Position numbers and translations under genes: made by a program. A stretch of DNA of 64,000 bases, from contig NZ_PPFB01000001.1 of NCBI RefSeq assembly GCF_002899455.1, positions 6,890,501 through 6,954,500 on the forward strand, given 5' to 3'. The stretch comes from Streptomyces sp. DH-12. Lineage in GTDB: Bacteria > Actinomycetota > Actinomycetes > Streptomycetales > Streptomycetaceae. The notes below the pieces were generated by a model. That model was not told the DNA's origin, ran no database searches, and saw only the letters and a list, made by a program, of their open reading frames with translations. Position 1 is the stretch's first letter. Each line of letters opens with the position of its first letter. Positions 7,093 through 38,287 of this stretch are shown piece after piece.

Positions 7093-7252
7093 GTAGCGCC
7101 CTCCCGGTGCACACGAAACGGGACGTTCGTCCGCTCCCCACCAGCATGTGTCATGCGCGCCGGTACGGCGACCGGCCGCACGGACCGCAACCATCGGGGC
7201 ATCCCGGTCGTCCCACCGGATACCAGAACGTTGTCGTCCCAGGGGGCCGAAA

Positions 7253-14659: not shown

Positions 14660-15688
14660 CTACGCCCCCGGGAACCTCCCCGTCGACCGCAGCGCCCAGC
14701 GGCGTTCCGCGTAGGCGAGGTCGTCCCGCCAGAGGCGGGCCGAGGCGGTGCGGACGAGGGGGCGGAGGAGGGGGGCGGCGGTCCGGGCGAGGGCGAAGCC
14801 GCGGCGGTCCGAGGCCGCCACCACCGCCTCGGTCACCGCCGTGCGCGGCCGGCCCGAGGCGTCCGGGCCCAGGGGGGTGGCGTGGGTCTCGACGACGGAG
14901 CCGACCCCCTCGCCCTCGGTGATGTGCATGACGACCGTGCGCGGCTCGGGAGCCGTGAACACCGCCCGCACCGGCACCACCAGACGACCCGCCACCTTGA
15001 ACGACACGTCCACGGCGAACGCGTCCCCGTGCGGATCGTCGGGGCGGTTCGAACCGTCCGGCGCGTCGGCCACCGTGAGGTCGACGAACGAGTACGGGTG
15101 GAACCAGGCCCCGTGCCAGGGGTCCAGCCGGTTCGCCACGACGTCCTCGGGCTCGCAGACGCCCACCCCGGAGTACACCGCCGTCAGGGCGCGCGCCGGG
15201 AGCGGACGGCGCGGTACGACCGGCGCGTCGAGCGGCTCCTCACCGCCGACCGCGTCCAGCCGTACCCACACGAGCACCCCGTCGTCGTGCGCGGGGAACG
15301 GCTCCCAGCCCGCGAACGGCCCGCCGTTCAGGGAGAGCCCGTGCCAGTGGCAGACGAGCGTGCCGCAGCGCACCGGGCTGTCCCGCAGCGGCGCGCCCAG
15401 GTGGGGGCAGACGCCCGGTCCGGCGACCACGCGCCCCTCCGCGTCCCGCCAGACCACCACTTCCCGCCCCGCCACCGTCCGGCCCAGCGGGCGGTCACCG
15501 CCCACGTCGCGGGAGGCGCCCACGACGTACCAGTTGCCCGAGGGGCGTGCCTGCGCCCGTTTCAGCGCGCCGGCGATCAGGGCGGGCCTGGCGTCCCGCC
15601 AGGTGGGACGCTGCCGTTCCCACGCCACCGCGTTGCGGCGCAGGGAGAGCGGCAGCCGCCGGCGTCCGCGTCCGTCGCCCGCCGTCAC
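14660..15688 (-). CDS. Rieske [2Fe-2S] protein with DUF5914-like C-terminal domain
   Basis: A 342-residue iron-sulfur protein. The Rieske centre is seen as CPHLGAPL and CHWHG (C-x-H...C-x2-H) at about residues 90-115. The C-terminal part (about 170-335) fits the DUF5914 type associated with carotenoid genes rather than a classical ring-hydroxylase catalytic domain. The GTG start overlaps the crtB stop (GTGA), so the gene is the third member of a crtI-crtB operon. It stands where crtV is reported in the Streptomyces crtEIBV operon. A role in oxidative tailoring of the carotenoid is an inference. Confidence 0.82.
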
Positions 15689-16701
15689 GCGACCTCCCCG
15701 ACCACCCGCGGGGCCGCCGGCTCCGCCGCCGTCAGCGGAGGGCGGTCGGGCACGCGGACGGCGGCGCCGCGGGACCGCAGTCTGGCGGCGGCCACCCGGA
15801 CGAGTCCGTCCGCGGCGACCGCCGTCCGCCGCCTGCGCGGCACCACCGCCCGCCGGTGCAGCACGGCGTACCCGTCCTCGGCCACCGCGTCCAGGATCCC
15901 GCCGTACAGGACGAACGCGGTGCGGATGCAGGGGCGGGACACCGGTTCGAGCATCGCGAGGCCCGGCGCCGCCTGCCGGTACACGCCCCGCGTCAGCCCC
16001 TCGAAGGCGCGCAGCGCCGAGGTGATGCGCGGGTCGCGGCGGCCGGTGTCGCGGCTCCACCGCAACAGCTCCCGGTCCACACCGTGCGCGGCGAGCAGGT
16101 CGGCGGGCAGGTACACCCGCCCCCGGTCCAGGTCCTCGCCCACGTCCCGCAGGAAGTTGGTCAGCTGGAAGGCGACGCCGAGGGCCGCCGCGTGCGGGGC
16201 CGCCGTCCCGCGGTCGGTGACCGTGCCGAGGACGGGCAGCATCTGCAGCCCGATCACCGCGGCCGACCCGTGCATGTACCGGCGCAGGGCCGCGTAGTCG
16301 GCGTAGTCGGTGACCACCAGGTCGGACCGCATGGCGGCCATGAAGTCGGCGAAGTGGGCGTGGTCGATGCGGTACCGCCGGGCCGTGTCGGCGAGGGCCC
16401 GCACCACCGGCTCGGCGCTCCGCCCGTCCCGCAGCCCCTTCTCCAGCTCTCTCTCCAGCGCGGCCAGTCCGGCGTCCCGGCGGGCGGTGTCCGCGCCCGT
16501 GCCGAGCGCGTCGACGATGTCGTCCGCCCAGCGGGCGAAGCCGTACAGGGCGTGCACGGCGGGCCGCCGCTCCACGGGCAGCAGCCGGGTGGCGAGGAAG
16601 TACGTCCGGCCGTGCCGGGCGTTGAGCCGGCGGCAGTGGCGGTACGCCTCGCGCAGTGCCGGATCCGTGACGCCCGCCGCGTCCAGTTCACGCTCGGTCA
16701 T
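15685..16701 (-). CDS. crtB: Phytoene synthase
   Basis: A 338-residue trans-isoprenyl synthase that joins two geranylgeranyl diphosphates into phytoene. The two Asp-rich metal-binding motifs are present: DDIVD at about residue 60 and [11 protein letters not shown] at about residue 195. The C-terminal region of about 50 residues is Arg/Ala/Pro-rich and probably not part of the core fold. Its start lies inside the end of crtI (14-bp overlap) and its stop overlaps the Rieske gene, so translation is coupled through the operon. Confidence 0.93.
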
Positions 16702-18232
16702 GCGGGGCCTCCTGTGCGGAAAGCGAGGTGGACGCGCGTCCGGCGGGGCCGCGGGCGCCGGTGACGCGTGCCGCGGCCAGTTTCCCGGACAGCAGCACGG
16801 TCGGCACGCCGACGCCGGGGGTGGTGCCGCAGCCGGCCAGCACCGCGTTCTCGGCGGAGCGCACCAGGTTCCTGGGCCGGAACGGGCCCGTCTGCGCGAA
16901 GGTGTGGGCGGTGGCGAACGGCGTGCCGGCCGCGTGCCCCTGCGCGGCCCAGTCGGCGGGCGTGACCACGCACTCCGCCTCGACGGCGGACGCCAGCCCG
17001 GTCAGACCGCGCCCCTCCAGCTCCCGCAGCACCGAGTCGCGGTAACGCGGCGCCAGGTCCGTCCACTCGGCCGCGCCCGGCCCGATGTCGGTGTTCGGGC
17101 ACGGCGCGAGGACGTAGTGCAGATGGCGTCCCGGCGGCGCGAGCGACGGGTCGGTGGCGGTGGGCCGGGTGATCAGCAGCGACGGGTCGCTCATCAGCCG
17201 CCCGGCACGGGTGAGCTCGTCGAAGGTGCCGCGCCACGCCTTGCCGAAGGAGAGGGTGTGGTGGGCCAGCTCGGGCCAGGTCCGGTCGGTCCCGAGGTGC
17301 AGCACCACCGCCGAGGGGGAGTGCCGCAGCCGCACCGGACGCCGGGGCGCCCCGCCGAGCAGCCGGTAGGCGACGGGCAGGTCGGGGGTGAGGACGACCG
17401 CGTCGCAGGGGATCCGCTCGTCGCCCGCGACCACCGCCGTGACCCGGCCGCCGGAGCGCTCCAGCCGGGTCACCTCCCGGCCGAACCGCAGGTCGGCGCC
17501 CGCGTCGGCGGCGGCGTCCGCCATCGCCTGCGGCAGCGCGTGCATGCCGCCGCGCGGGAAGTACACGCCGGCGACCGTGTCCATGTACGCGATCACCGCG
17601 TACGCGGCCAGCGCCCGCGCCGGGGGGACGCCCGCGTACAGCGCCTGGAAGGAGAACACCCGGCGCAGCCGCTCGTCCTTCAGGAAGCTCCCGATGCGCG
17701 TGTCCAGCCGTCCGAAGCCGCCGAGCGCCGCCAGCCGCACCAGGTCCGGGTGGAGCAGGCCCAGCGGCGAGTCGAAGTTCGCGTCGATGAACCGGCGCAT
17801 CTGCGCCCGGTACAGCCGCTCCAGCCAGTCCCGCATCCGCAGGTAGCCCGCCGCCTCCCGAGCCCCGGCGAACCGCTCCACCTCGGCGGCCATCGCCTCG
17901 CCCCCGGTGTGCACGTCGAGGCTGCTGCCGTCGGCGAACCGCGCCCGGTAGGCGGGGTGCAGCTCCACCAGCTCCACCCGCTTGCGCAGGCTGTCCCCGA
18001 CCGCGGCGAACGGCTCGTCCGCCAGGTCGGGCATGGTCAGCACGGTGGGCCCGGTGTCGATCCGGTACCCGTCCAGCTCCGTCCGCCCGGCGCGTCCGCC
18101 CGGCAGTCCGTCGCGCTCGACGACGGTCACGCGCCGGCCCGCGCCGAGCAGGTGCAGCGCCGCCGACAGACCGGCCAGCCCGGCCCCCACGACGACGACA
18201 TGGTCCGTGCGCCCCGGAACGGTACGGGTCAC
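16688..18232 (-). CDS. crtI: Phytoene desaturase
   Basis: A 514-residue FAD enzyme that converts phytoene to lycopene. The N-terminal motif [21 protein letters not shown] is followed by the [11 protein letters not shown] patch; the C-terminal CrtI signature ([22 protein letters not shown]) is also present. The GTG at 18232 overlaps the stop of a small upstream reading frame (GTGA), which may drive its translation because its own ribosome site is weak. It is the first clear gene of the crtI-crtB-Rieske operon and diverges from crtY. Confidence 0.94.
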
Positions 18233-18414
18233 CGCCCGGCCCCCGCTCCGGCCGCGTGCCCGCACGGCACGCGGCGCCCTGCCGTACGGCCGTCCGCGGG
18301 CCCCGCCGTCACGCGGACGGACGGCACCCGGACGGTGGGTCCCGGCGGGTGAGCCGGGCGCGGCGCGCGCGGCCCGAACGCCGCGCGGTGTTCCTTGGCC
18401 CCAGTGGGGAGCAT
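18229..18414 (-). CDS. Possible small leader ORF coupled to crtI
   Basis: A 61-codon frame starts at ATG 18414 with a good AGAGGAAG ribosome site eight bases upstream, and its stop overlaps the crtI GTG in a GTGA arrangement. The product (MLPTGAKEHRAAFGP at the start, then Pro/Arg/Gly-rich) matches nothing that I recognise and is not like the end of a CrtE. It may be a translated leader that couples ribosomes into crtI. The alternative is that the frame is fortuitous in GC-rich DNA. Confidence 0.4.
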   Translation of the reverse strand: MLPTGAKEHRAAFGPRAPRPAHPPGPTVRVPSVRVTAGPADGRTAGRRVPCGHAAGAGAGR

Positions 18415-18598
18415 CCGGTGTCTTCCTCTCATCGGCATGCGCATCGCTCCGGTACGCCGGACGACCGGCGCATGCCTTCCCGGTCGCGCCCGTCGTCTCA
18501 CGCCCGAGTGACCCGGATCCGACCGGGCACACGGACGGAAACAACTGGTCACGCGGATGCGTACGGAGTCGTGTCGTACGGAGGAGGGTGGTGCCGGC
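18415..18598. promoter_or_regulatory. Divergent crtI / crtY control region
   Basis: This short region must hold the promoters for both crt operons. It is less GC-rich around 18530-18560. A nine-base direct repeat CGTACGGAG occurs at 18560-18568 and 18575-18583, the second copy merging with the crtY ribosome site. In other Streptomyces, crt promoters are switched on by light through an ECF sigma factor (LitS) controlled by LitR; neither gene is in this window, and no ECF promoter could be placed with confidence. Confidence 0.5.
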
Positions 18599-19792
18599 GT
18601 GCTGGACGCGGACGTCGCGATCGTCGGGGCGGGGGCGGCCGGGCTGTCCCTGGCCCACCGGCTGGCCGGGCCCGGCAGCGGGGACCGGGCGCCGTCCGTC
18701 GCCCTGCTGGACGCGCCGCCCGGACCGCTGCGGCCGCCGCGCCGCACCTGGTGCTTCTGGGAGGCGGGCCCCGGCCGCTTCGACGCCGCGGTCACCGCGT
18801 CCTGGCGGCGCCTGCGGGTCCGCGACCCCGCCGGGCGCGGCATCGACGGGGACATCGCGCCGCTGCGCTACAAGATGATCCGCTCCGACGACTTCGAGCA
18901 CCTTGTCGCCCGCGACCTGGCGGACCGCGCGGACGTCCGGCGCGTGGAGGGCACCGTCGACACCGTGGAGGACGTGCCCCGGGGAGCGCTGGTCCGGCTG
19001 CGCGACGGCGACGGCCACGTCCGCGTCGTCCGGGCCCGCTGGGTGTTCGACTCCCGTCCGCCGGGCAGCCTGCCGGCCGCCCGCACCACGCTGCTCCAGC
19101 ACTTCCACGGCTGGTTCGTGCGCACCGCCCGGCCCGCCTTCGAGCCCGGCACCGCCGAACTGATGGACTTCCGCACCCCGCAGCCCGCCGACGGCCTGTC
19201 CTTCGGCTACGTCCTGCCCCTCGGCCGGCACGACGCCCTGGTGGAGTACACCGAGTTCTCCCCCCGGACCCTCGCCCCCGACGCCTACGAGGCGGCCGTA
19301 CGGCACTACACGGACGACGTGCTGCGGCTCGGCGACCTCGAGGTGCTGTCCACCGAGACGGGCGTCATCCCGATGACCGACGCGGTGATGCCCCGGCAGA
19401 CCGGCCAGTCCGTGTTCCGCATCGGGGCCGCGGGCGGCGCCACCCGCCCCTCCACCGGCTACACCTTCGCCGGTCTCCAGCGGCAGACCCGGGCCGTCGC
19501 CGCCGCCCTGCGCGAGGGCCGCCGCCCGGTGCCGCCGCCCGCCCACTCGGCACGCTCCCGGGCCATGGACGCCGTGCTGCTGCGCGCCCTGGCCGGCGGC
19601 CGCGCCGACGGGCCCGCCCTGTTCTGCCGGCTCTTCGACCGCGTCCCCATGCGCCGGCTGCTGCGGTTCCTCGACGGCGACACCCGCCTGCACGAGGACC
19701 TCGCCGTCGGCCTGCACGCACCGGTCGGCCCGATGCTCCGCTCCGCGCTCGAACTGCCCGGCCTGCCCCGCCGCCCCTACGAAGGCCCCTGA
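18599..19792 (+). CDS. crtY: Lycopene beta-cyclase
   Basis: A 397-residue cyclase that closes both ends of lycopene to beta-carotene. The dinucleotide-binding motif DVAIVGAGAAGLSLAHRLAG is at the N-terminus; the cyclase hallmark RTWCFWE lies near residue 50 and RIGAAGGATRPSTGYTF near 280-295. The start is taken as GTG 18599, behind GAGGAGG at 18581-18587, because it places the Rossmann strand at the N-terminus; ATG 18557 is an in-frame alternative with no ribosome site. It heads crtY-crtT-crtU. Confidence 0.92.
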   Translation: MLDADVAIVGAGAAGLSLAHRLAGPGSGDRAPSVALLDAPPGPLRPPRRTWCFWEAGPGRFDAAVTASWRRLRVRDPAGRGIDGDIAPLRYKMIRSDDFEHLVARDLADRADVRRVEGTVDTVEDVPRGALVRLRDGDGHVRVVRARWVFDSRPPGSLPAARTTLLQHFHGWFVRTARPAFEPGTAELMDFRTPQPADGLSFGYVLPLGRHDALVEYTEFSPRTLAPDAYEAAVRHYTDDVLRLGDLEVLSTETGVIPMTDAVMPRQTGQSVFRIGAAGGATRPSTGYTFAGLQRQTRAVAAALREGRRPVPPPAHSARSRAMDAVLLRALAGGRADGPALFCRLFDRVPMRRLLRFLDGDTRLHEDLAVGLHAPVGPMLRSALELPGLPRRPYEGP

Positions 19793-19832
19793 CCGCCCCG
19801 GTACGCCCAGTCCCTGCCATCCCGGAGACCCC

Positions 19833-20564
19833 ATGACCCTCCTGCGCGACGAGAACCTCGCCGCCGCCTTCGACCACGCCGCCCGCAGCTACGACACCCT
19901 GGTCGCCGCCAACCCCGGCTACCACGCCCATCTGCGCCGCTCCGCACGCCGGCTCGGCCTGCCCCGCGGCGGCGAGGGGCTGCGCGTGCTCGACCTCGGC
20001 TGCGGCACCGGCGCCTCCACCGCCGCGCTCGCCGAGGTGCTGCCGGGCGCGGACATCACCGCCGTGGACGCCTCCGCGGGCATGCTGGAGCGGGCCGCCG
20101 CCAAGATCTGGCCGCCGAACGTGACGTTCACCCACGCGCCCGCCGAACGGCTCGCGCAGGACGGCGTGACCGGCCCCTTCGACGCGGTCTTCGCCGCCTA
20201 CCTGTTCCGCAACGTCACCGACCCCGACGCCGTACTGCGCACCGTGCGCGCACTGCTCGTGCCCGGCGGACGCCTCGCGGTGCACGAGTACGCCCTCGGC
20301 GGACGCCGCACCGACCGTGCCGTGTGGACCCTGGTCTGCCGGGGCGTCGTCCAGCCCGTGGCGACCCTGCTCGGGGACGGCGACCTGTACCGCCATCTGT
20401 GGCGCAGCGTCGTGGAGTTCGACACCGCCGACCGGTTCGCGGACCGGCTGCGGGCGAACGGCTTCGACCGTGTGCGCCGCCTGCCGCTGCCCGGCTGGCA
20501 GACCGGCATCACCCACACCTTCACCGGGCGCCGGCCCTGCACCGTGCCGGAGGACGCGCGATGA
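19833..20564 (+). CDS. crtT: SAM-dependent methyltransferase of the carotenoid cluster
   Basis: A 243-residue class I methyltransferase of the UbiE/Methyltransf_25 type. The SAM-binding motif VLDLGCGTGASTAAL is at about residues 52-66, with VDASAGMLERA as the acidic motif II. It corresponds in position and type to crtT in the Streptomyces crtYTU operon, whose exact role in isorenieratene formation is not settled. Its stop overlaps the crtU start (ATGA). Confidence 0.85.
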   Translation: MTLLRDENLAAAFDHAARSYDTLVAANPGYHAHLRRSARRLGLPRGGEGLRVLDLGCGTGASTAALAEVLPGADITAVDASAGMLERAAAKIWPPNVTFTHAPAERLAQDGVTGPFDAVFAAYLFRNVTDPDAVLRTVRALLVPGGRLAVHEYALGGRRTDRAVWTLVCRGVVQPVATLLGDGDLYRHLWRSVVEFDTADRFADRLRANGFDRVRRLPLPGWQTGITHTFTGRRPCTVPEDAR

Positions 20565-22126
20565 CCCGCCCGCACCGCCCCGCCGCCGCCCGCCGCGGAC
20601 GTGACCGCCGCGCCCGCGTGCTGATGCCCCCGCCCGGCGCGCCGCGCGTCGACGGCGACCGCCGGCCCGGCACCGCCGTCGTCGGCGGCGGCATCGCCGG
20701 ACTGGCCGCCGCCACCGCCCTCGCCGAACGCGGCGTCGCCGTCACCCTCTACGAAGCCCGCCCCTACCTGGGCGGACGCGTCGGCGGCTGGCCCGTCGAC
20801 CTGAAGGACGGCACGCCCGCGACGATGAGCCGCGGCTTCCACGCCTTCTTCCGCCAGTACTACAACCTGCGCGGCCTGCTCCGGCGCACCGACCCCGCCC
20901 TGGAACGCCTCACCCCGCTGCCCGACTACCCGCTGCGGCACAGCGACGGCACCTGCGACAGCTTCCGGCACGTGCCCCGCACCCCGCCGTGGAGCGCGCT
21001 CGGGTTCGCCGCGCTCAGCCCGTCCTTCCCGCTGCGCGACCTGCCCCGGATGGACGCGGCGGCCGCGCTGCCGCTGCTCGACGTCCGCGTGCCCGAGGTG
21101 TACGAGCGCCTCGACTCCGTCAGCGCGCACGACTTCCTCGACGCGGTCCGCTTCCCGCGGAGCGCCCGGCACCTGGCGTTCGAGGTGTTCTCGCGCAGCT
21201 TCTTCGCCGACCCGCGGCTGCTGTCGGCCGCGGAGATGGCGCTGATGTTCCACATCTACTTCCTCGGCTCCTCCGAGGGCCTGCTGTTCGACGTGCCGGC
21301 CGCGCCCTTCCCCGCGGCCCTGTGGGAGCCGCTCGCCGCCCTGCTCGACCGGCACGGCGCGAACCTGCGCACCTCCACCCCCGTCGAGCACGTCGAACCC
21401 CTGGACGACGGGGGGTACGCGGTCGCCACCGACCGGGACGAGCAGCGTCACGACACCGTGGTGCTCGCCCTGGACGCCGTCGGACTGCGCGCCCTCGTCG
21501 ACCGCTCCGTCCGGCTCGGCGACACACCCTGGCGGGAGCGGGTCGCCCGGCTGCGCAACGCCCCGCCGTTCCTGGTCTCCCGCCTCTGGCTGGACCGCCC
21601 GGTCGCCCCCGACCGGCCCGGCTTCCTCGGCACCAGCGGCTACGGCACCCTCGACAACGTCAGCGTCCTCGAACGGTACGAGGACGAGGCCGCCCGCTGG
21701 GCCGCCCGCACCGGCGGATCCGTCGTCGAACTGCACGCCTACGCCCTGCTCCCGGAGTCGTCCCCGGAGGTCGAACAGAAGCGGCTGCTCGACCAGCTGC
21801 ACCGCGTCTATCCGGAGACCCGTAACGCGGCGATCGTCGACGCCCGCCACGAGTGGGGCACCGACTGTCCCCTCTTCCCGGTGGGCGGCCACGAGGACCG
21901 GCCCACGGTCCGCACGCCCGACCCGGGCCTGGTGGTGGCCGGCGACCTGGTCCGCACGTCCCTGCCGGTCGCCCTGATGGAACGCGCGGCGACCACCGGC
22001 TTCCTCGCCGCGAACGCCCTGCTGGAACGCTGGGGCGTACGGGGCCAGCCGCTCTGGACGGTCCCCGACCGAGGCCGCAGCGCGGTGCTGCGCGGGCTGG
22101 CGGGGGCGGTGGGGCGCCGGAGGTGA
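20561..22126 (+). CDS. crtU: Carotene desaturase/methyltransferase (isorenieratene-forming)
   Basis: A 521-residue FAD protein of the CrtU type, which turns beta-ionone rings of beta-carotene into aromatic rings by desaturation and methyl migration. After a hydrophilic N-terminal extension of about 35 residues comes GTAVVGGGIAGLAAATALAE and the EARPYLGGRVGGW patch. The motif MSRGFHAFFRQYYNLRGLL near residue 85-105 is typical of this group. With crtY and crtT it predicts aromatic carotenoids such as isorenieratene. The operon ends at a hairpin at 22156-22178. Confidence 0.92.
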   Translation: MTRPHRPAAARRGRDRRARVLMPPPGAPRVDGDRRPGTAVVGGGIAGLAAATALAERGVAVTLYEARPYLGGRVGGWPVDLKDGTPATMSRGFHAFFRQYYNLRGLLRRTDPALERLTPLPDYPLRHSDGTCDSFRHVPRTPPWSALGFAALSPSFPLRDLPRMDAAAALPLLDVRVPEVYERLDSVSAHDFLDAVRFPRSARHLAFEVFSRSFFADPRLLSAAEMALMFHIYFLGSSEGLLFDVPAAPFPAALWEPLAALLDRHGANLRTSTPVEHVEPLDDGGYAVATDRDEQRHDTVVLALDAVGLRALVDRSVRLGDTPWRERVARLRNAPPFLVSRLWLDRPVAPDRPGFLGTSGYGTLDNVSVLERYEDEAARWAARTGGSVVELHAYALLPESSPEVEQKRLLDQLHRVYPETRNAAIVDARHEWGTDCPLFPVGGHEDRPTVRTPDPGLVVAGDLVRTSLPVALMERAATTGFLAANALLERWGVRGQPLWTVPDRGRSAVLRGLAGAVGRRR

Positions 22127-22184: not shown

Positions 22185-23261
22185 TCAGACCACCGTGTCC
22201 GTGACCGCCGGGTCGGTCCTGCCGGTCAGGCGGGCGGCGCCGGCCCGGACCATGGCGAGGGCGCGCGGGAAGTCGTACAGGTGGTCGGCGAGGATGTCCA
22301 GGCCGGTCACCAGGGAGTGCGGCGGGACGTTGCGCGCGGACAGCACGTCCGCCGTCCAGCCCAGGAAGTCGGTGAACACCTCCACGGCGTCCACGTAGAG
22401 GGCGGTGGCCAGGAAGTCCACGACGTGCGCCAGGTCCTCCGCCGTGCGCTCCCGCTGTGCCTCGCTGTACTCCCGCATCGGCGGGAAGCGGCGTTCCAGC
22501 TCCGTCAGCGTCTCCTTGACCAGCCGGCCGCGCGACTGGGCGACCACGCTGTACTCCTGGTCGGCCAGGTGCGGCAGGTCGTCGACGGCCTGCCGGACGC
22601 CCGTGGGCCTGTCCAGCCCGGCCTCCAGCACGGCCGCGGCGCCCCGCGCGTCCGGGGCCCATCCGTCGGCGCCCAGGGCGCGCGCGTACCGCCCGTCCAC
22701 GCCGAACGCCCTGCCTCCCGCCACCACCGGCACGCCGACCGACCGGCAGGCGGTGATGGCGGTGTGCGCCCGCGGCAGATGGGTGGGGATCGACCCGGAC
22801 AGCAGCACGGCGTCGGAGTCGGTGTGGTGCTGGTGGGCGACCAGGTGCGGCGTCGGCGTCTGCGCGCCGAGGTAGTCCACCTGCCAGCCGCGCAGCCGCA
22901 GCGTCTCGGCGACCAGCCGCGCCGGGAACGCGTGCCACTCGCCGTCCACACAGCTCACCGTGACCCGGCCCCGGCGGGCCGCCGGCCGGATGCCGGGGGA
23001 CAGATGCGCGAGGGCGGTGATCACCCGCTCGTTGATCGCCGTGGCGGCGTGCTCCTGGGCGACGCTGATGCGGTCGGCCGCCCACTCGACACCGACCCTC
23101 GCCTGTACTGCCGCGACCACGTCGAGCAGCAGGTCCTCCTCCTGCCAGCCGTCCGCCAGGGCGCCGCGGACGACGTCGACGGCGTCGTACTCGTCGCCCT
23201 CGATGACCGCCTTCCACAGCGCCTCGCCCAGTTCACCGGCCGAGGACCGGGGCCCGCTCAT
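22185..23261 (-). CDS. Stand-alone CarH-type cobalamin-binding (photo)sensor protein
   Basis: A 358-residue protein with a helical B12-binding cap domain (about 8-90), a Rossmann B12-binding domain (about 98-200) and a helical C-terminal domain (about 215-345). The cap contains W60, nine residues, then E70-H71: the W-X9-EH signature of CarH/LitR photoreceptors, in which adenosylcobalamin blocks the site until light cleaves Co-C. E108-W-H110 supplies the probable lower axial His; the usual trailing Gly is Pro here. There is no MerR helix-turn-helix, so it cannot act as CarH does. The C-terminal domain loosely resembles RsbR-type globin-like N-domains. The start overlaps the phosphatase stop (ATGA), suggesting a stoichiometric complex. 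Confidence 0.88.
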   Translation of the reverse strand: MSGPRSSAGELGEALWKAVIEGDEYDAVDVVRGALADGWQEEDLLLDVVAAVQARVGVEWAADRISVAQEHAATAINERVITALAHLSPGIRPAARRGRVTVSCVDGEWHAFPARLVAETLRLRGWQVDYLGAQTPTPHLVAHQHHTDSDAVLLSGSIPTHLPRAHTAITACRSVGVPVVAGGRAFGVDGRYARALGADGWAPDARGAAAVLEAGLDRPTGVRQAVDDLPHLADQEYSVVAQSRGRLVKETLTELERRFPPMREYSEAQRERTAEDLAHVVDFLATALYVDAVEVFTDFLGWTADVLSARNVPPHSLVTGLDILADHLYDFPRALAMVRAGAARLTGRTDPAVTDTVV

Positions 23262-25015
23262 GCCTTCCTCCGTGCTCGTCCGCCCCCACCGGCCGGCGCG
23301 CCGTCGTCCGCCGGGTGGCCGTTGCGCGGGGCGCCGATGGCGACGACGGCCATGTCGTCGTGCCGGCTGCCCGGCTCCAGCCACTGCGCGGCCAGCATCT
23401 GTACATGTTCCACCAGCGCCTCGCCCGGCATGCCGCCGCATTCCCCGAGGGCCTGCCGCAGCCGCTCCTCGCCGAACAGCTCGCCGCCCAGGGGCCCGCC
23501 GCGGGCCTCGGTGATGCCGTCGGTGTAGAGCAGGCACGTGTCGCCGGGGGCGAGGACGGTCTCCACGGTGCGCGCGGTCACCTCGGGCAGCGCGCCCACG
23601 AGGGTGCCCTGCGTGGGCATCTCCTCGACCCGGCCGTCCGTGCGCACCACGAGCGGCGGCAGATGCCCGGCGCTGGTGAGCCGCAGCCGTACCGAGCCGT
23701 CGTCCCGGCGGTCCACGGAGGCCAGCACCAGGGTGGCGAACCGGGCGTGGTGGGAGGTGAGCAGGGCGCTGTTGAGCATGCGCAGCACCCGGAGGTGGTC
23801 GGAGGCGAGCGGCAGCAGCGCGTGCAGCGTGTTGCGGATCTTCCCGGTGAGCACCGCCGCGTCCAGTCCCTTGCCGGCCACGTCGCCCAGCGCGACGAAC
23901 GTCTCGGCGGACTCGTCCGGGCCGGGGTGGACGTCGTAGAAGTCGCCGCCGACCCGCTCGTGGTCCATGGCGGTGCGGTAGCGGCCCGCGTAGTCGACGC
24001 CGTGCACGCGGCTCAGCGGCGGCGGCAGCAGCTCCCGCATCAGGGTGCCGGTGATGGCGGTCTGCTCGCTGTACAGGCGTGCCGCCGACAGGGCGGTGCC
24101 CGCGCGTGAGGCGAACAGCCGGGCGAAGACCTCCTCCTCGGACGAGAACCCCTTCTCGGTGTCCGAGCGCAGCAGGATCAGAGCGCCGGCGGGCACCCCG
24201 TGCCCGGGCAGCGGCGTGACCAGCACGGAGCCGACCGGCCCGGAGAAGCCCTCGGGGACCACCCAGTCCGGTACGGCGTCCGGGTTGATCCAGCGGGCCG
24301 GCACCGGAGGGAAGCCGCGCAGGGCCTCGTCGAGGCCGGGGACGGTGAGCGGGTCGATCTGCCGGGTCTCCCGCACCACCCGCTGCCCGCGCAGGGCGTG
24401 GGTGACGGCGTACCGGTGGCCGGTCGGCGGGGTGATCAGCACGGCGGCCTCGGCGAGGTGGTCGGTGGCCATCCGGGCGGCGACCTCCGCGCAGCGCGGC
24501 ACGTTGAGGGAGGACAGCAGGGTGCTGAAGAGGCCGGAGGTGGCGTCGGCCCGCTCACGGGTCTCCCGTACGGCCGCCTGAGCCCGCACGAGGTCGGTAC
24601 GGTCGAACAGCCACCAGGCCACGTGGCCGTCGCCGGTGGGGGAGGGCCGGGCCTCGTAGGAGCGGTCGCCGAAGGTCCCGGCCGGCGTGTCCGTCGTCGG
24701 GACGTCGGTTCCGGCGACCTGGCGCCGGTGCGCGTCGGCCAGCCAGGACGGCGGGGTGTCGGGGGCGGGGGAGGCGGCGGTGAGGCGGCGGGCGGCGCGG
24801 TTGCGGCCGACGATCCGGCCGCGGGCGTCCAGCACCAGAACGGGGCAGGGCGCGTCGTCCCACGTGGGAACGGATCCGTCGCGCGTATCGCACGGACCGG
24901 CGCCGGAACCGGGGGAAGGAATCACGAACGAGGTGCGCGCCGCGCACCCACCCCCTTTCTCGTCGGCGTGAGCAGGTACGGCGGCAACGGTCCCCCATCT
25001 GTGCCCGCGAAGCAA
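23258..25015 (-). CDS. PAS-GAF-SpoIIE serine phosphatase coupled to the B12 sensor
   Basis: A protein of up to 585 residues with a PAS-like domain (about 45-150, APCPVLVLDARGRIVGRNRA), a GAF domain (about 165-325), a short linker helix and a complete SpoIIE/PP2C domain (about 345-560). Metal-site motifs are intact: GGDFYDVH, GDVAGKGLDAA, YTDGITEARGG and HDDMAVVAIG. It probably dephosphorylates a STAS anti-sigma antagonist. Translational coupling to the cobalamin sensor suggests direct control by it. The start is uncertain: the TTG at 25015 gives the longest frame and the GTG at 24925 is an in-frame alternative, neither with a good ribosome site. Confidence 0.88.
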   Translation of the reverse strand: MLRGHRWGTVAAVPAHADEKGGGCAARTSFVIPSPGSGAGPCDTRDGSVPTWDDAPCPVLVLDARGRIVGRNRAARRLTAASPAPDTPPSWLADAHRRQVAGTDVPTTDTPAGTFGDRSYEARPSPTGDGHVAWWLFDRTDLVRAQAAVRETRERADATSGLFSTLLSSLNVPRCAEVAARMATDHLAEAAVLITPPTGHRYAVTHALRGQRVVRETRQIDPLTVPGLDEALRGFPPVPARWINPDAVPDWVVPEGFSGPVGSVLVTPLPGHGVPAGALILLRSDTEKGFSSEEEVFARLFASRAGTALSAARLYSEQTAITGTLMRELLPPPLSRVHGVDYAGRYRTAMDHERVGGDFYDVHPGPDESAETFVALGDVAGKGLDAAVLTGKIRNTLHALLPLASDHLRVLRMLNSALLTSHHARFATLVLASVDRRDDGSVRLRLTSAGHLPPLVVRTDGRVEEMPTQGTLVGALPEVTARTVETVLAPGDTCLLYTDGITEARGGPLGGELFGEERLRQALGECGGMPGEALVEHVQMLAAQWLEPGSRHDDMAVVAIGAPRNGHPADDGAPAGGGGRARRKA

Positions 25016-25070
25016 CCTGCCCGCTCGGCCAGGCCGTCCATGCGACGCCGCGTACCCCGGAACAGGTGTT

Positions 25071-25781
25071 TCATGTCCGGCGGACGGCAGGACGGTCCCG
25101 GTCGGCCGCGGTCACGGCGTCCCGTACGGCCCGGTGCACGGCGCGCGCCAGCCGCGCCCCCCACAGCGACCGGGGCCCGGCGAACGCGTGCGCCTCCCGG
25201 TGCGGGGCCGGGGCGTCGGCGACGACGCACACCGCGTCGGTGGGGGTTCCGGAGCAGTCGTACCCGCTCTCCACCAGCGCCTGGACCTTCGCCTCCGTGG
25301 CGGTGGCCACCGCGTTCACCAGGGCCGCGTCGGACAGCGCGGCCGGCACGGCCACCACGACGTTGACGGTGCCGGGATCCGGGGCGCCCGCCGCGCCCTC
25401 ACCGGGCCACGCGGCCCAGCCGCGCACGTCGATCCCCGCTGTGACGAACGCCTCGGCCCCCGCGTCACGCGCGTGCGCGTACGACGACACGTCGGCGGCC
25501 GTCATCAGGCCCACCCCCTCGCCGCGCACGCCCGCGTCCGCGGCGAGGGAGGCGAGGTGCCGCTCCGGGTCGGTGCGCCGGTAGCCGTGCGCCACCTGCG
25601 CGTTGAGGACCCAGGCACGCTCGCCGATGCCGCCGCCCAGCACCGCGCTGCTGATCATCCGGCGCCCGGGCCCGGCGGTCCACAGCAGGGCGTGCAGCCG
25701 TTCACCGCCCTCGGTACGGGTCAGACGGCGCGGAGCCGGCAGGGCGGGCGTGGCGGGGTACGGGGGCAGTACGGCGGTCAC
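25071..25781 (-). CDS. cbiZ: Adenosylcobinamide amidohydrolase
   Basis: A 236-residue member of the CbiZ family, which cleaves the amide of adenosylcobinamide to give adenosylcobyric acid, allowing salvage or remodelling of cobamides. The family segment RRMISSAVLGGGIGERAWVL is at about residues 40-60, with further conserved stretches GVGLMTAADVSSYAHA and VNVVVAVPAALSDAALVNA. The GTG start has AAGGAG nine bases upstream. It lies between a kinase-like gene and the phosphatase, all on the minus strand, so it may supply the adenosylcobalamin used by the adjacent sensor. Confidence 0.88.
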   Translation of the reverse strand: MTAVLPPYPATPALPAPRRLTRTEGGERLHALLWTAGPGRRMISSAVLGGGIGERAWVLNAQVAHGYRRTDPERHLASLAADAGVRGEGVGLMTAADVSSYAHARDAGAEAFVTAGIDVRGWAAWPGEGAAGAPDPGTVNVVVAVPAALSDAALVNAVATATEAKVQALVESGYDCSGTPTDAVCVVADAPAPHREAHAFAGPRSLWGARLARAVHRAVRDAVTAADRDRPAVRRT

Positions 25782-25856
25782 CGTGCGGGGCTCCTTGCGG
25801 GGGGTCGGCCCGGCCGATCGTAGGCCGTGCCGGGTCCGCGCCCCGCGCCGGGGTGA

Positions 25857-26273
25857 TCACCCGGAGACGGCCTCCGGCGCGCGGAAGCAGGCGGTGACGG
25901 TCTTGCCGTGGGGGCAGGGGCGGGCCTCCCACGTGTCGGCCAGGACGTCGACCAGCAGCATGCCGCGCCCGCCGACCCGCTCCTCGCTCGGCTCGCGCGG
26001 CGTGGGCAGGGAGGCGGACCCGTCGTGCACCGAGATGTGCAGGCAGCGGGTGTCCCACGACATGACCAGCTGTGCGTCGGTACCGGCGTGCACATGCGCG
26101 TTGGTGACCAGCTCCGACACCGTGAGCAGCACGTCGTGGACCGTCTCGGGAGCGGTCTCGTCCCACCCCAGGGAGGCGAGGTGCTCCTGCGCCCAGTCAC
26201 GGGCCGCCTTGACACCCTGGCCCATCGGCAGGGAGCGGGCCCAGCCCACGGTGCGGACCGACGATTCCTTCAT
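25857..26273 (-). CDS. RsbW-like ATP-binding regulatory kinase (HATPase_c)
   Basis: A 138-residue GHKL ATPase of the anti-sigma/SpoIIAB-RsbW type. The N box is seen as VHDVLLTVSELVTNAHVHAG (about 52-71) and the G box as VGGRGMLLVDVLADTWEA (about 106-123). Such proteins phosphorylate STAS proteins or sequester a sigma factor. ATG 26273 is preferred because GGAAAGGA lies just upstream; ATG 26291 is an in-frame alternative with poor spacing. It is the first larger gene of the minus-strand signalling set that ends with the B12 sensor; no STAS gene is present in the window. Confidence 0.82.
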   Translation of the reverse strand: MKESSVRTVGWARSLPMGQGVKAARDWAQEHLASLGWDETAPETVHDVLLTVSELVTNAHVHAGTDAQLVMSWDTRCLHISVHDGSASLPTPREPSEERVGGRGMLLVDVLADTWEARPCPHGKTVTACFRAPEAVSG

Positions 26274-26353
26274 GAAGTCCTTTCCGGTCATCTCCGGTCA
26301 TCGGCCTGCCGTCCGCACGGATGCGTGCCGGACGGTGCGGGCGAGGGGCCGGC

Positions 26354-26503
26354 TCAGCGCCGGCCGCCGCGCAGCCGTCCCAGCAGCCGCTGGGCCTGCG
26401 CCCGCCGCCGGGGGTCGGCCGCGGCCCGCCGCAGCTGCTCGGTCGTGCGGCGTCCCTGCGGACTCCGGGCGAACTGCTTGATGCGTTCCACCATGCCGGG
26501 CAT
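26354..26503 (-). CDS. Small basic protein (49 aa)
   Basis: A 49-residue Arg-rich protein (MPGMVERIKQFARSPQGRR at its start, LLGRLRGGRR at its end). AGAGGAG lies seven bases upstream of the ATG, the best ribosome site nearby. The sequence looks like one long amphipathic helix and resembles a small conserved Streptomyces protein of unknown function. It lies 80 bp upstream of the kinase-like gene on the same strand. Confidence 0.65.
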   Translation of the reverse strand: MPGMVERIKQFARSPQGRRTTEQLRRAAADPRRRAQAQRLLGRLRGGRR

Positions 26504-36402: not shown

Positions 36403-37404
36403 TCAGTCCGCGCCACGGTCCTCCTCCCGCTGCGGCCGTCCGGGCGGGGCGGACTCGCCCGCCGTCAGATGCTCCAGCACCTCCACCAGTTCCTGGCACG
36501 CCCGCTCCACGGACCGCCGGGTGTTGTGCTGCTCGGTGATCACCGCGGACAGCAGCAGCGAGGTCAGGGCCGCCGCCGCGTTGAACGCCTGCAGACTGAC
36601 CATGATCTGCAGGTCCGACAGATGCGCGAACGTGCCCGCCCGTCCGGTCGCCGCGTCCGTCGCCAGCAGGGAGGCGAACAGGGCGCACAGCATGCTGCCG
36701 GGCAGCTCGAACCGCAGCGCCGCCCAGATCAGCAGCGGCTGGACGGAGAACAGCAGACTGTCCGAGCCGTGCGTGGCGAACGGCACGAGGACGCCCGCGA
36801 CCGCCGCCAGGCCCAGCGCCTCCTTCCAGCGTCTCCAGTGCACGGGGGAGCGCGCCCGGGGCAGGATCAGCAGCACCGGGGCGACGAGCAGCACCCCCAT
36901 CGCGTCGCCCACCCACCAGGCCAGCCACACCGGCCAGAAGCGCCCGGCCGGCAGGTCGCCCGTGCCGAGGAGCATCAGCGCGCCGGTCGTGGAACTGACC
37001 AGCATGGCGGCGAACCCGCCGAGGAACACCAGGCTGAGGCAGTCGCGTAATCGGCCGAGGCCGGTGCGGAAACCCGCCCTGCGCAGCAACAGGTACGCGC
37101 ACAGCGGCGCCACGGTGGCGCCGAGGAGCACGCCCAGCGAGGACCACTCCAACGACGTGAGACGGACGAGCACCAGCAGCGCGCCCAGGGTGATGCCCGG
37201 CCAGCAGCGCGGCCCGAAGAGCAGCAGGGAGGCGACGGCGACCCCGGTCGGCGGCCAGACGGGGGACACCACCGAGCCGTCGACGGTCAGTTCGTACAGC
37301 AGCCCGAGGCGGCCCCCGGCGTAGCAGCAGGCGGCGACGGCCAGCGTCTGGAGCGCGTAGACGGCCGGTGCACGGAGATCCTGGCGAGCCACCACACCTG
37401 CCAT
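36403..37404 (-). CDS. MASE1-domain integral membrane sensor protein
   Basis: A 333-residue polytopic protein with about eight predicted transmembrane helices, the MASE1 sensor module (for example GRLGLLYELTVDGSVVSPVW and PPTGVAVASLLLFG at about 33-67). It ends in a short cytoplasmic coil (EQHNTRRSVERACQELVEVLEHL) without an output domain. In other bacteria MASE1 is fused to GGDEF, kinase or phosphatase domains; here the matching phosphatase is probably the separate gene 52 bp upstream. GTG 37407 is an alternative start. The gene contains a TTA leucine codon at 37048-37050, so its translation should depend on the bldA tRNA. Confidence 0.85.
   Translation of the reverse strand: MAGVVARQDLRAPAVYALQTLAVAACCYAGGRLGLLYELTVDGSVVSPVWPPTGVAVASLLLFGPRCWPGITLGALLVLVRLTSLEWSSLGVLLGATVAPLCAYLLLRRAGFRTGLGRLRDCLSLVFLGGFAAMLVSSTTGALMLLGTGDLPAGRFWPVWLAWWVGDAMGVLLVAPVLLILPRARSPVHWRRWKEALGLAAVAGVLVPFATHGSDSLLFSVQPLLIWAALRFELPGSMLCALFASLLATDAATGRAGTFAHLSDLQIMVSLQAFNAAAALTSLLLSAVITEQHNTRRSVERACQELVEVLEHLTAGESAPPGRPQREEDRGAD
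37048..37050 (-). promoter_or_regulatory. TTA codon in the MASE1 gene (bldA dependence)
   Basis: Reading the minus strand, the codons ...GGC CGA TTA CGC GAC... give G-R-L-R-D. TTA codons are very rare in Streptomyces and need the developmentally controlled bldA tRNA. I noticed no other in-frame TTA in this window when reading by eye. Confidence 0.8.
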
Positions 37405-37456
37405 CACACACCGAGGCGGCCGCGACGGCGAGGCGGGAGGCGCGGGGCTGTCGGCC

Positions 37457-38287
37457 CTATGGCTGACCGCCCAGCCGGTCGTGCCCGATCACCAGCACCG
37501 CCGCGTCGTCGTCGTGCCCCACCTCGGTCGCGCCCTTGATCACGGCGGCGGCGAGCGCGTCCGCGTCCATGCCCGCCACCGCCGCGATGCCCGCGAGCCG
37601 CGAGACCTGCTCCAGCCCCTGGTCCAGATGCAGCGACGGACCCTCCACGACCCCGTCGGTGACCATCACGAACACCCCGCCGGAGTCCAGCCGGTACCGG
37701 GTCACCGGGAACACCGCGCCGGACTGCACGCCCAGCGGCGGACCGCCCTCGTCGTCCGTCACGCCGGACCGCCCGTCCGCGGTGGCCCACACGCACGGCA
37801 GATGACCGGCGCGGGCGCTCTCCAGCAGCCGGGTCCCCGGGTCGAGGCGCATGAAGGTGCAGGTCGCGAAGAGGTCCGAGCTCAGCGTCAGCAGCAGCTC
37901 GTTCGTCCGCGCCAGCAGTTCGCCCGGGTCGCTGTCCACGGAGGCCAGCGCCCGCAGCCCGACCCGGACCTGCCCCATGAAGGCGGCCGCCTCGATGTTG
38001 TGCCCCTGCACGTCGCCGATGGACAGGCCGATCCGCCCGTCGGGCATGGTGAAGGCGTCGTACCAGTCGCCGCCCACGTTGAGGCCCTGGTTGGCGGGCA
38101 CGTACCGCACCGCGAGCCGTACGCCGTCGGCGGTGGGCAGCCCCCTCGGCAGCATCCCGCGCTGCAGGGCCACGGCCAGCTCCACCCGGGAGCGCTGCAC
38201 CTCCGCCGCCGCGCGGGCCTGGGCCGTCAGCGTCCCGAGCCTGGTCAGCAGCTCGTCGCCGTGGTCCTTGGAGCCGGTGCGGGACAT
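37457..38287 (-). CDS. RsbU-like SpoIIE serine phosphatase
   Basis: A 276-residue phosphatase with a short coiled N-terminus (about 8-50, TRLGTLTAQARAAAEVQRSR) and a complete SpoIIE/PP2C domain (about 55-270). Its metal motifs are GGDWYDAFTM, GDVQGHNIEAAAFMGQ, VTDGVVEGPS and HDDDAAVLVIG. It has no sensor domain of its own. The MASE1 membrane protein follows by 52 bp in the same direction and is likely the input partner, making a split MASE1-phosphatase system. The usual target would be a phosphorylated STAS protein. Confidence 0.88.
   Translation of the reverse strand: MSRTGSKDHGDELLTRLGTLTAQARAAAEVQRSRVELAVALQRGMLPRGLPTADGVRLAVRYVPANQGLNVGGDWYDAFTMPDGRIGLSIGDVQGHNIEAAAFMGQVRVGLRALASVDSDPGELLARTNELLLTLSSDLFATCTFMRLDPGTRLLESARAGHLPCVWATADGRSGVTDDEGGPPLGVQSGAVFPVTRYRLDSGGVFVMVTDGVVEGPSLHLDQGLEQVSRLAGIAAVAGMDADALAAAVIKGATEVGHDDDAAVLVIGHDRLGGQP

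Follow-up and report, generated by a model that had tools for sequence, protein, structure and literature searches.

A stretch of 64,000 nucleotides from the 7.6 Mb genome of Streptomyces sp. DH-12 (hereafter the window) carries a gene for a PAS-GAF-SpoIIE phosphatase (P0001) coupled to a gene for a B12-binding sensor (P0005), and our sequence comparisons indicate that these two genes, the window pair, are a real conserved module in which the sensor is a photocobilin. We consider it probable (about 0.72) that, in the family as a whole, light changes the photocobilin, which would in turn act on the phosphatase and through it on a STAS protein or another target. An earlier note on this DNA had proposed that a CarH-like B12 photosensor is wired to a phosphatase instead of to DNA. 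The overlap of the two genes, the conservation of their arrangement and the lack of a helix-turn-helix (HTH) domain in the sensor all favor that idea; what had to be revised was the kind of sensor.

In a search of PDB sequences, P0005 matched the photocobilin entries 8J2W/8J2X full-length (residues 13-338 aligned, E 1.7e-80), with 154 of 326 aligned columns (47%) identical to SasPcob, and it matched AbPcob with an E value of 4e-42, whereas CarH chains aligned only with residues 10-212 (E 4e-12 to 4e-11). A single P0005 chain comprises a four-helix bundle (residues ~8-87), a B12 Rossmann domain (~99-214) and a C-terminal globin-like bilin domain (~235-346). Seven SasPcob residues named around adenosylcobalamin (AdoCbl) and biliverdin in the part of PMC10979010 on which we draw (W61, E71, H72, H108, H137, D270 and W296) correspond to W60, E70, H71, H110, H139, D276 and W302 of P0005; among them, D276, W302 and H139 match the bilin-contact residues Asp270, Trp296 and His137. 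Both the W-x9-EH motif (W60, E70-H71) and the E108-x-H110 motif with the axial His are present. W60, E70, H71, H110 and D276 were invariant in the 91 closer relatives, with W302 conserved in 90 of them and H139 in 89. Among the nine most distant photocobilins, one retained H139 and seven retained D276. The globin domain lacks a Cys for covalent bilin attachment, the only Cys residues of the protein being at positions 104 and 172. The AlphaFold model of P0005 had a predicted local distance difference test score (pLDDT) of 90 and a predicted template modeling score (pTM) of 0.88, and five photocobilin chains were its top five PDB hits in Foldseek, with template modeling (TM) scores of 0.82-0.91. 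The closest named photocobilin was that of Streptomyces albogriseolus (93%).

Together, these results led us to conclude with high confidence that P0005 is a photocobilin, with a B12 core and a bilin globin, and therefore that a bilin is its probable second chromophore. P0005 does share with CarH and LitR the B12 core, the W-x9-EH and E-x-H motifs and a carotenoid gene neighborhood, and its model resembles CarH/LitR chains with a TM score of about 0.44-0.49 over the query, as would be expected of a direct DNA-binding repressor placed beside carotenoid genes. However, neither Pfam nor the model revealed a MerR-type N-terminal DNA-binding domain, since the four-helix bundle starts the chain; the NCBIfam CarH model scored 58 bits against a cut-off of 400, and P0005 has the additional bilin globin. 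Direct repression in the manner of CarH was rejected on these grounds and has, in our estimate, almost no chance of being correct. An Ala follows W60 in P0005; at this position CarH presumably carries the His that takes part in its bis-His form in the light.

The phosphatase P0001 contains the motifs GGDFYD, GDVAGKG, YTDGI and HDDMAV, and its SpoIIE/PPM domain carries the metal-binding Asp motifs, while the PAS (20.6 bits) and GAF (18.3 bits) assignments lie below their Pfam cut-offs. In its AlphaFold model (31 rows; mean pLDDT 83, pTM 0.56), two regions of mixed helix and strand are followed by a long helix at residues 292-328 and then by the phosphatase domain. The start codon, a TTG at position 25015, is uncertain, and residues 1-49 are predicted to be disordered. 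The ATGA overlap pointed out in the earlier note is present, the ATG of the sensor lying over the stop codon of the phosphatase by 4 nt.

The coupled pair is not confined to this strain. Homologues of P0005 turned up in 89 of the 249 Streptomycetaceae genomes searched (E 1e-60) and, across the phylum, in 20 of 296 genomes (E 1e-20), several of the phylum matches ending before the globin part. The neighborhoods were compared in two sets that share genomes. Set 1 comprised 100 loci (L060-L159), 87 from the Streptomycetaceae search and 13 from the phylum search, leaving out phylum matches to the B12 part only, partial matches (G515, G525 and G394, for example) and some further ones, among them G395, G505, G511, G531 and G533; set 2 consisted of named loci, the 80 best out of 394 confirmed. 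A P0001-type phosphatase was located directly upstream of the sensor on the same strand in 89 set-1 loci, with the 4-nt overlap in 74, and it took the same directly upstream place in 78 set-2 loci (one a C-terminal piece, in L181, and two fragmented, in L166 and L191), including those of Amycolatopsis, Mycobacterium/Mycolicibacterium, Saccharothrix and Actinosynnema. None of the 89 set-1 loci in which a phosphatase is adjacent encodes a fused phosphatase-photocobilin protein. With P0001-type phosphatases counted at E 1e-90, both genes occurred in 86 of the 249 Streptomycetaceae genomes, the sensor alone in three, the phosphatase alone in four and neither in 156; even in G345 and G354, where the two genes are separated (by 28 kb and on different contigs, respectively), both are present.

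A third gene belongs to the module in most relatives. Clustering of neighbors revealed a small gene directly downstream of the sensor; of four representatives, three were above the STAS family cut-offs and that of L061 was just under both. Using a profile built from 33 of these downstream genes, a STAS gene was found within 400 bases downstream in 82 of the 100 set-1 loci (84 with a slightly wider limit) and directly downstream in 67 of the 80 set-2 loci. Of the encoded proteins, 79 of the 84 in set 1 and 59 of the 67 in set 2 carry Ser or Thr at the phosphosite. A phosphorylatable STAS protein is thus the likely substrate of the phosphatase in most relatives, and we infer that SpoIIE-photocobilin-STAS was the ancestral unit of the group, a triad seen in Streptomycetaceae, Amycolatopsis, mycobacteria, Saccharothrix and Actinosynnema. 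Species that retain the triad include S. cinerochromogenes (L186) and S. albidoflavus (L203), and in S. poonensis (L190) two such triads stand in tandem.

The core of the proposed mechanism would be a two-protein light switch, in which a photocobilin binding B12 and probably biliverdin is translationally coupled to a dedicated PAS-GAF-linker-PPM phosphatase. The portions of PMC10979010 considered here describe AdoCbl and biliverdin binding and a green and red response in photocobilins (with weak biliverdin binding in AbDPcob), a dark AdoCbl form of SasPcob that is a head-to-tail dimer and becomes a monomer when light cleaves the Co-C bond, and an action of photocobilins on a separate enzyme, a diguanylate cyclase, by protein contact in vitro. 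The light-altered photocobilin may likewise change its contact with the PAS-GAF and linker part of P0001 and thereby switch the phosphatase, much as RsbT acts on RsbU and, as has been proposed, RsbQ on RsbP. In most relatives the phosphatase would then dephosphorylate the STAS protein encoded next to the sensor, feeding a partner switch on an anti-sigma kinase. As far as the sections of PMC12143880 used here go, PPM phosphatases are switched by partner proteins via a helical linker, and the action of such a phosphatase on a STAS substrate under partner control is established for RsbU/RsbT. The RsbP-RsbQ and RsbU-RsbT systems of Bacillus subtilis resemble the present one in having a PPM phosphatase with an N-terminal sensory part, a helical linker, a separate partner and, for their part, a STAS substrate; they differ, to judge from the same sections, in that here the partner is of the photoreceptor type and the phosphatase has a PAS plus a GAF domain.

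Several observations weigh against this mechanism. The co-occurrence of sensor and phosphatase (Fisher p 1e-57) was evaluated by a test that ignores phylogeny and kinship. The adjacent phosphatase is missing in 11 of the 100 set-1 loci (L074, L135, L138 and eight of the nine most distant); only a C-terminal piece of it is adjacent in L071 and L105, where the full-length copy lies on another contig; and the distant L149 has a shorter phosphatase relative without the PAS part. Eighteen of the 89 sensor-bearing genomes have no obvious biliverdin source in a PF01126 search. In the window itself, no STAS gene was detected within 9 kb of the pair with the 33-gene profile, nor was a sigma-B/F-like factor detected within 9 kb of the sensor with one query protein (other sigma types not searched). 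The suggestion of the earlier note that the sensor feeds partner switching is accordingly kept for the family, where the STAS gene makes light input into this process well supported as an inference, but not for the immediate surroundings of the window pair. As to the sigma factor output that the earlier note held possible, sigma-B/F-like genes (E below 1e-50) occur in the fetched flanks of few loci (8 of 100 in set 1, 4 of 80 in set 2), in no fixed position, and are given no weight as evidence for the window. In L138 such a gene lies directly upstream of the photocobilin (1037-120 bases), the usual phosphatase being 28 kb off.

In a tree of 84 photocobilins, the window lineage fell into one clade of 16 (Shimodaira-Hasegawa-like approximate likelihood ratio test support 96), in which none of the members has a phosphorylatable STAS protein: nine lack STAS, and seven have one without Ser/Thr at the phosphosite, which reads DALG, DRLG, DPLG or GPLG. 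A phosphorylatable STAS is also missing from seven of the 68 tree rows outside the clade, a further point against the general mechanism. Carotenoid (crt) genes lie in the fetched flank of 14 of the 16 members (the L169 record is only 6.4 kb long), and in the window the crtU-like gene occupies the position where most relatives carry the STAS gene. Outside the clade, crt genes flank L139 and, at 7-8 kb, L069, both with an intact STAS. As the clade pattern amounts to one evolutionary event, and an independent-pair comparison offered three pairs only, the data do not establish a tie between crt linkage and STAS loss. Since the phosphorylatable STAS beside the pair was lost while the other two genes stayed intact in most members, the phosphatase of this clade would act on an unlinked target (the host genome has 16 STAS_2 domains above cut-off) or on another protein.

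The window pair is part of a set of five genes, all on the minus strand as the earlier note had described (Table 1), with Pfam matches above cut-off for CbiZ (173 bits), SpoIIE (145), HATPase_c_2 (45), B12-binding (55) and B12-binding_2 (50). Fourteen of the 16 clade members combine CbiZ with a same-strand upstream HATPase, an arrangement absent from all other tree rows, and the five-gene set was rejected as a functional unit. CbiZ and the upstream kinase-like gene are, by this distribution, additions of the window's clade and, like the carotenoid genes, are placed outside the conserved unit. The upstream gene had been read as an RsbW-like kinase; the fold assignment stands and a kinase or anti-sigma role is putative, but its linkage to the pair is not conserved and its match to the NCBIfam RsbA model is far below the cut-off. 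A HATPase 59% identical to it stands downstream on the opposite strand in L073 and L182. Of the 13 CbiZ-linked set-2 loci, 12 carry the open reading frame (ORF) of 49 amino acids (aa) with 86-96% identity, and L166 has it in two pieces; a copy also exists in L207, a locus without linked CbiZ.

Table 1. Features of the window around the photocobilin-phosphatase pair.
Feature	Position	Strand	Basis
Photocobilin-type B12/bilin sensor, 358 aa (P0005)	22185..23261	minus	ATGA overlap, PDB 8J2W/8J2X match, chromophore residues, model
PAS-GAF-helical linker-PPM/SpoIIE-type Ser/Thr phosphatase (P0001)	23258..25015	minus	PF07228 145 bits, motifs, model
CbiZ, adenosylcobinamide amidohydrolase-like	25071..25781	minus	PF01955 173 bits
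HATPase_c_2 protein (P0003), RsbW-like fold	25857..26291	minus	PF13581 44.7 bits
Basic protein, 49 aa	26354..26503	minus	kept in CbiZ-linked loci; no Pfam family match
crtU-like amine-oxidase-fold carotenoid gene	20324..22126	plus	PF01593; true start may fall inside ORF
crtT-like methyltransferase	19833..20564	plus	Pfam search and synteny
Lycopene cyclase crtY	18557..19792	plus	PF05834 355 bits
crtI-like desaturase	16763..18178 (matched part of ORF 16688-19834)	minus	PF01593 205 bits
Phytoene synthase crtB	15685..16701	minus	PF00494 238 bits

The carotenoid neighborhood reported in the earlier note was confirmed: the crtY, crtT-like and crtU-like genes converge on the five-gene set, with 58 bp between the end of the crtU-like gene and the stop codon of the sensor, and the crtI- and crtB-like genes lie farther off.

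The position of CbiZ beside the pair raises an alternative, namely that the sensor reports the supply of corrinoid (AdoCbl) instead of light and, with CbiZ, signals cobalamin status to the phosphatase. The host CbiZ is the only PF01955 match of its genome, and the biliverdin supply of the 18 genomes mentioned above is uncertain; nevertheless, CbiZ is linked in only two of the 100 set-1 loci and 13 of the 80 set-2 loci, the latter all in the window's clade, and the residues capping the adenosyl group and those holding the bilin are conserved, among them D276 (in 91 of 91 closer relatives), for which a pure B12 sensor would have no use. We regard corrinoid sensing as improbable, and under a light-sensing role the adjacent CbiZ, as the sole copy of the genome, fits AdoCbl supply, to which it probably contributes. 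The host also has a heme oxygenase gene (C1:5423587-5424195), so biliverdin can probably be made; across genomes the association is weak, PF01126 being present in 71 of the 89 sensor-bearing and 105 of the 160 other genomes (p 0.02, kinship ignored). The absence of a phosphorylatable STAS from the whole clade could also mean that the module is decaying there, the pair no longer signaling once its substrate was gone. This would agree with the state of the phosphatase in L191, where it is split between two frames, and in L166, where it is broken (draft assembly errors being possible in both), but it is difficult to reconcile with chromophore residues intact in 16 of 16 members (except H139, an Arg in one), with phosphatase motifs intact in 12 of 14 set-2 members and in the window, or with five close species that keep the same gene order and a phosphatase 89-91% identical; decay is, in our opinion, unlikely.

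The arrangement of the window further raises the possibility, in our view a rather unlikely one, that in this clade the pair controls the neighboring carotenoid genes through another target, taking the place of LitR. In 14 of the 16 members the sensor gene converges on carotenoid genes, which is compatible with this idea, as is the state of LitR in the host, where a sibling LitR query detected only a 77-codon C-terminal remnant (C1:1706264-1706494; L305:6265-6495, minus strand). Compared with the sibling locus, this remnant lacks both the HTH and the helical bundle as well as some of the B12 domain, and the sequence there is free of Ns. As MetH and P0005 are the only PF02607 matches in the genome and LitR is a remnant, the photocobilin is the only recognised B12 photoreceptor of the host. 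However, the loss of LitR does not follow the linkage. We surveyed 15 genomes, corresponding to 13 of the 16 clade members (without L163, L167 and L172) together with G560 and G656, two genomes of similar sequence whose sensor neighborhoods are not among the fetched loci; LitR was intact in eight (L160, L161, L162, L164, L165, L170, L063 and G656), absent or broken in six (the window's genome, G560, L166, L168, L185 and L191) and truncated at the end of a contig in one (L169), and it was missing in three of five photocobilin genomes outside the clade. Replacement of LitR as a rule is therefore not supported. In addition, the genes are convergent and not co-transcribed, and visual inspection of the crtI-crtY spacer gave no recognisable promoter element, one of the sigma-B type included. 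It is a speculative, rather doubtful scenario that in the S. albogriseolus group the pair, freed from STAS, was rewired beside the carotenoid genes to a new target, and that in the host, with LitR deleted, the only B12 photoreceptor left sets crt expression by dephosphorylation instead of by DNA binding. Before crtY, at window positions 18505-18534, close species share a conserved block, CGAGTGACCCGGATC followed by GGGCACAC, which L165 and L191 retain in part; it is a possible regulator site.

Photoglobins, reportedly described by Schneider et al. in 2022 as a computationally defined family of globin-B12 fusions, are said to have been proposed as light sensors linked to signaling genes, and P0005 shares this architecture and genomic setting. 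It resembles the photocobilins SasPcob (Saccharothrix syringae, 8J2W/8J2X) and AbDPcob (8J2Y) in homology, domain order, the seven residues and the Cys-less globin, and it is standalone like SasPcob. Based on STRING, it was suggested that SasPcob may interact with STAS, SpoIIE and PP2C proteins (Zhang et al. 2024, PMC10979010); in the part of that paper used here the phosphatase link is only predicted, whereas in our data the phosphatase is conserved and overlap-coupled and most relatives carry the STAS gene. Photocobilins were thus already known, and the SpoIIE/STAS link of SasPcob had been suggested in 2024; the conserved triad and its loss in the window's clade appear to be new, as no published account of the photocobilin-phosphatase-STAS triad or of its loss beside carotenoid genes was found in the literature searched, which excluded the photoglobin paper and most subscription papers.

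Our results name a dedicated photocobilin partner, the PAS-GAF-PPM phosphatase, and, in most of the species examined, its likely STAS substrate, in Streptomyces, Amycolatopsis, Saccharothrix, Actinosynnema and mycobacteria, which brings the question of light within reach of direct tests on three proteins, one being a homologue of a crystallised photocobilin. If the proposed mechanism is true, green and red light would be among the inputs of bacterial partner switching, and a two-chromophore light-gated phosphatase for optogenetics could follow.

Other combinations of sensor and output genes were seen during this analysis. In the distant loci L144 and L145, the photocobilins are preceded by genes whose products look like GGDEF proteins on visual inspection; this may be a counterpart, in two genes, of the fused AbDPcob. 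In L144 (7389-7742) and L147 (7493-7828), in photocobilin orientation, a protein with an ABM domain (PF03992) ends at the photocobilin start codon and might be a heme-degrading monooxygenase that supplies the bilin. Within the window, a MASE1 membrane protein stands beside another SpoIIE phosphatase on the minus strand (36403-37407 and 37457-38287), possibly a second sensor-phosphatase pair, and positions 4513-7194 of the same strand encode another PAS-GAF-SpoIIE phosphatase of 893 aa.

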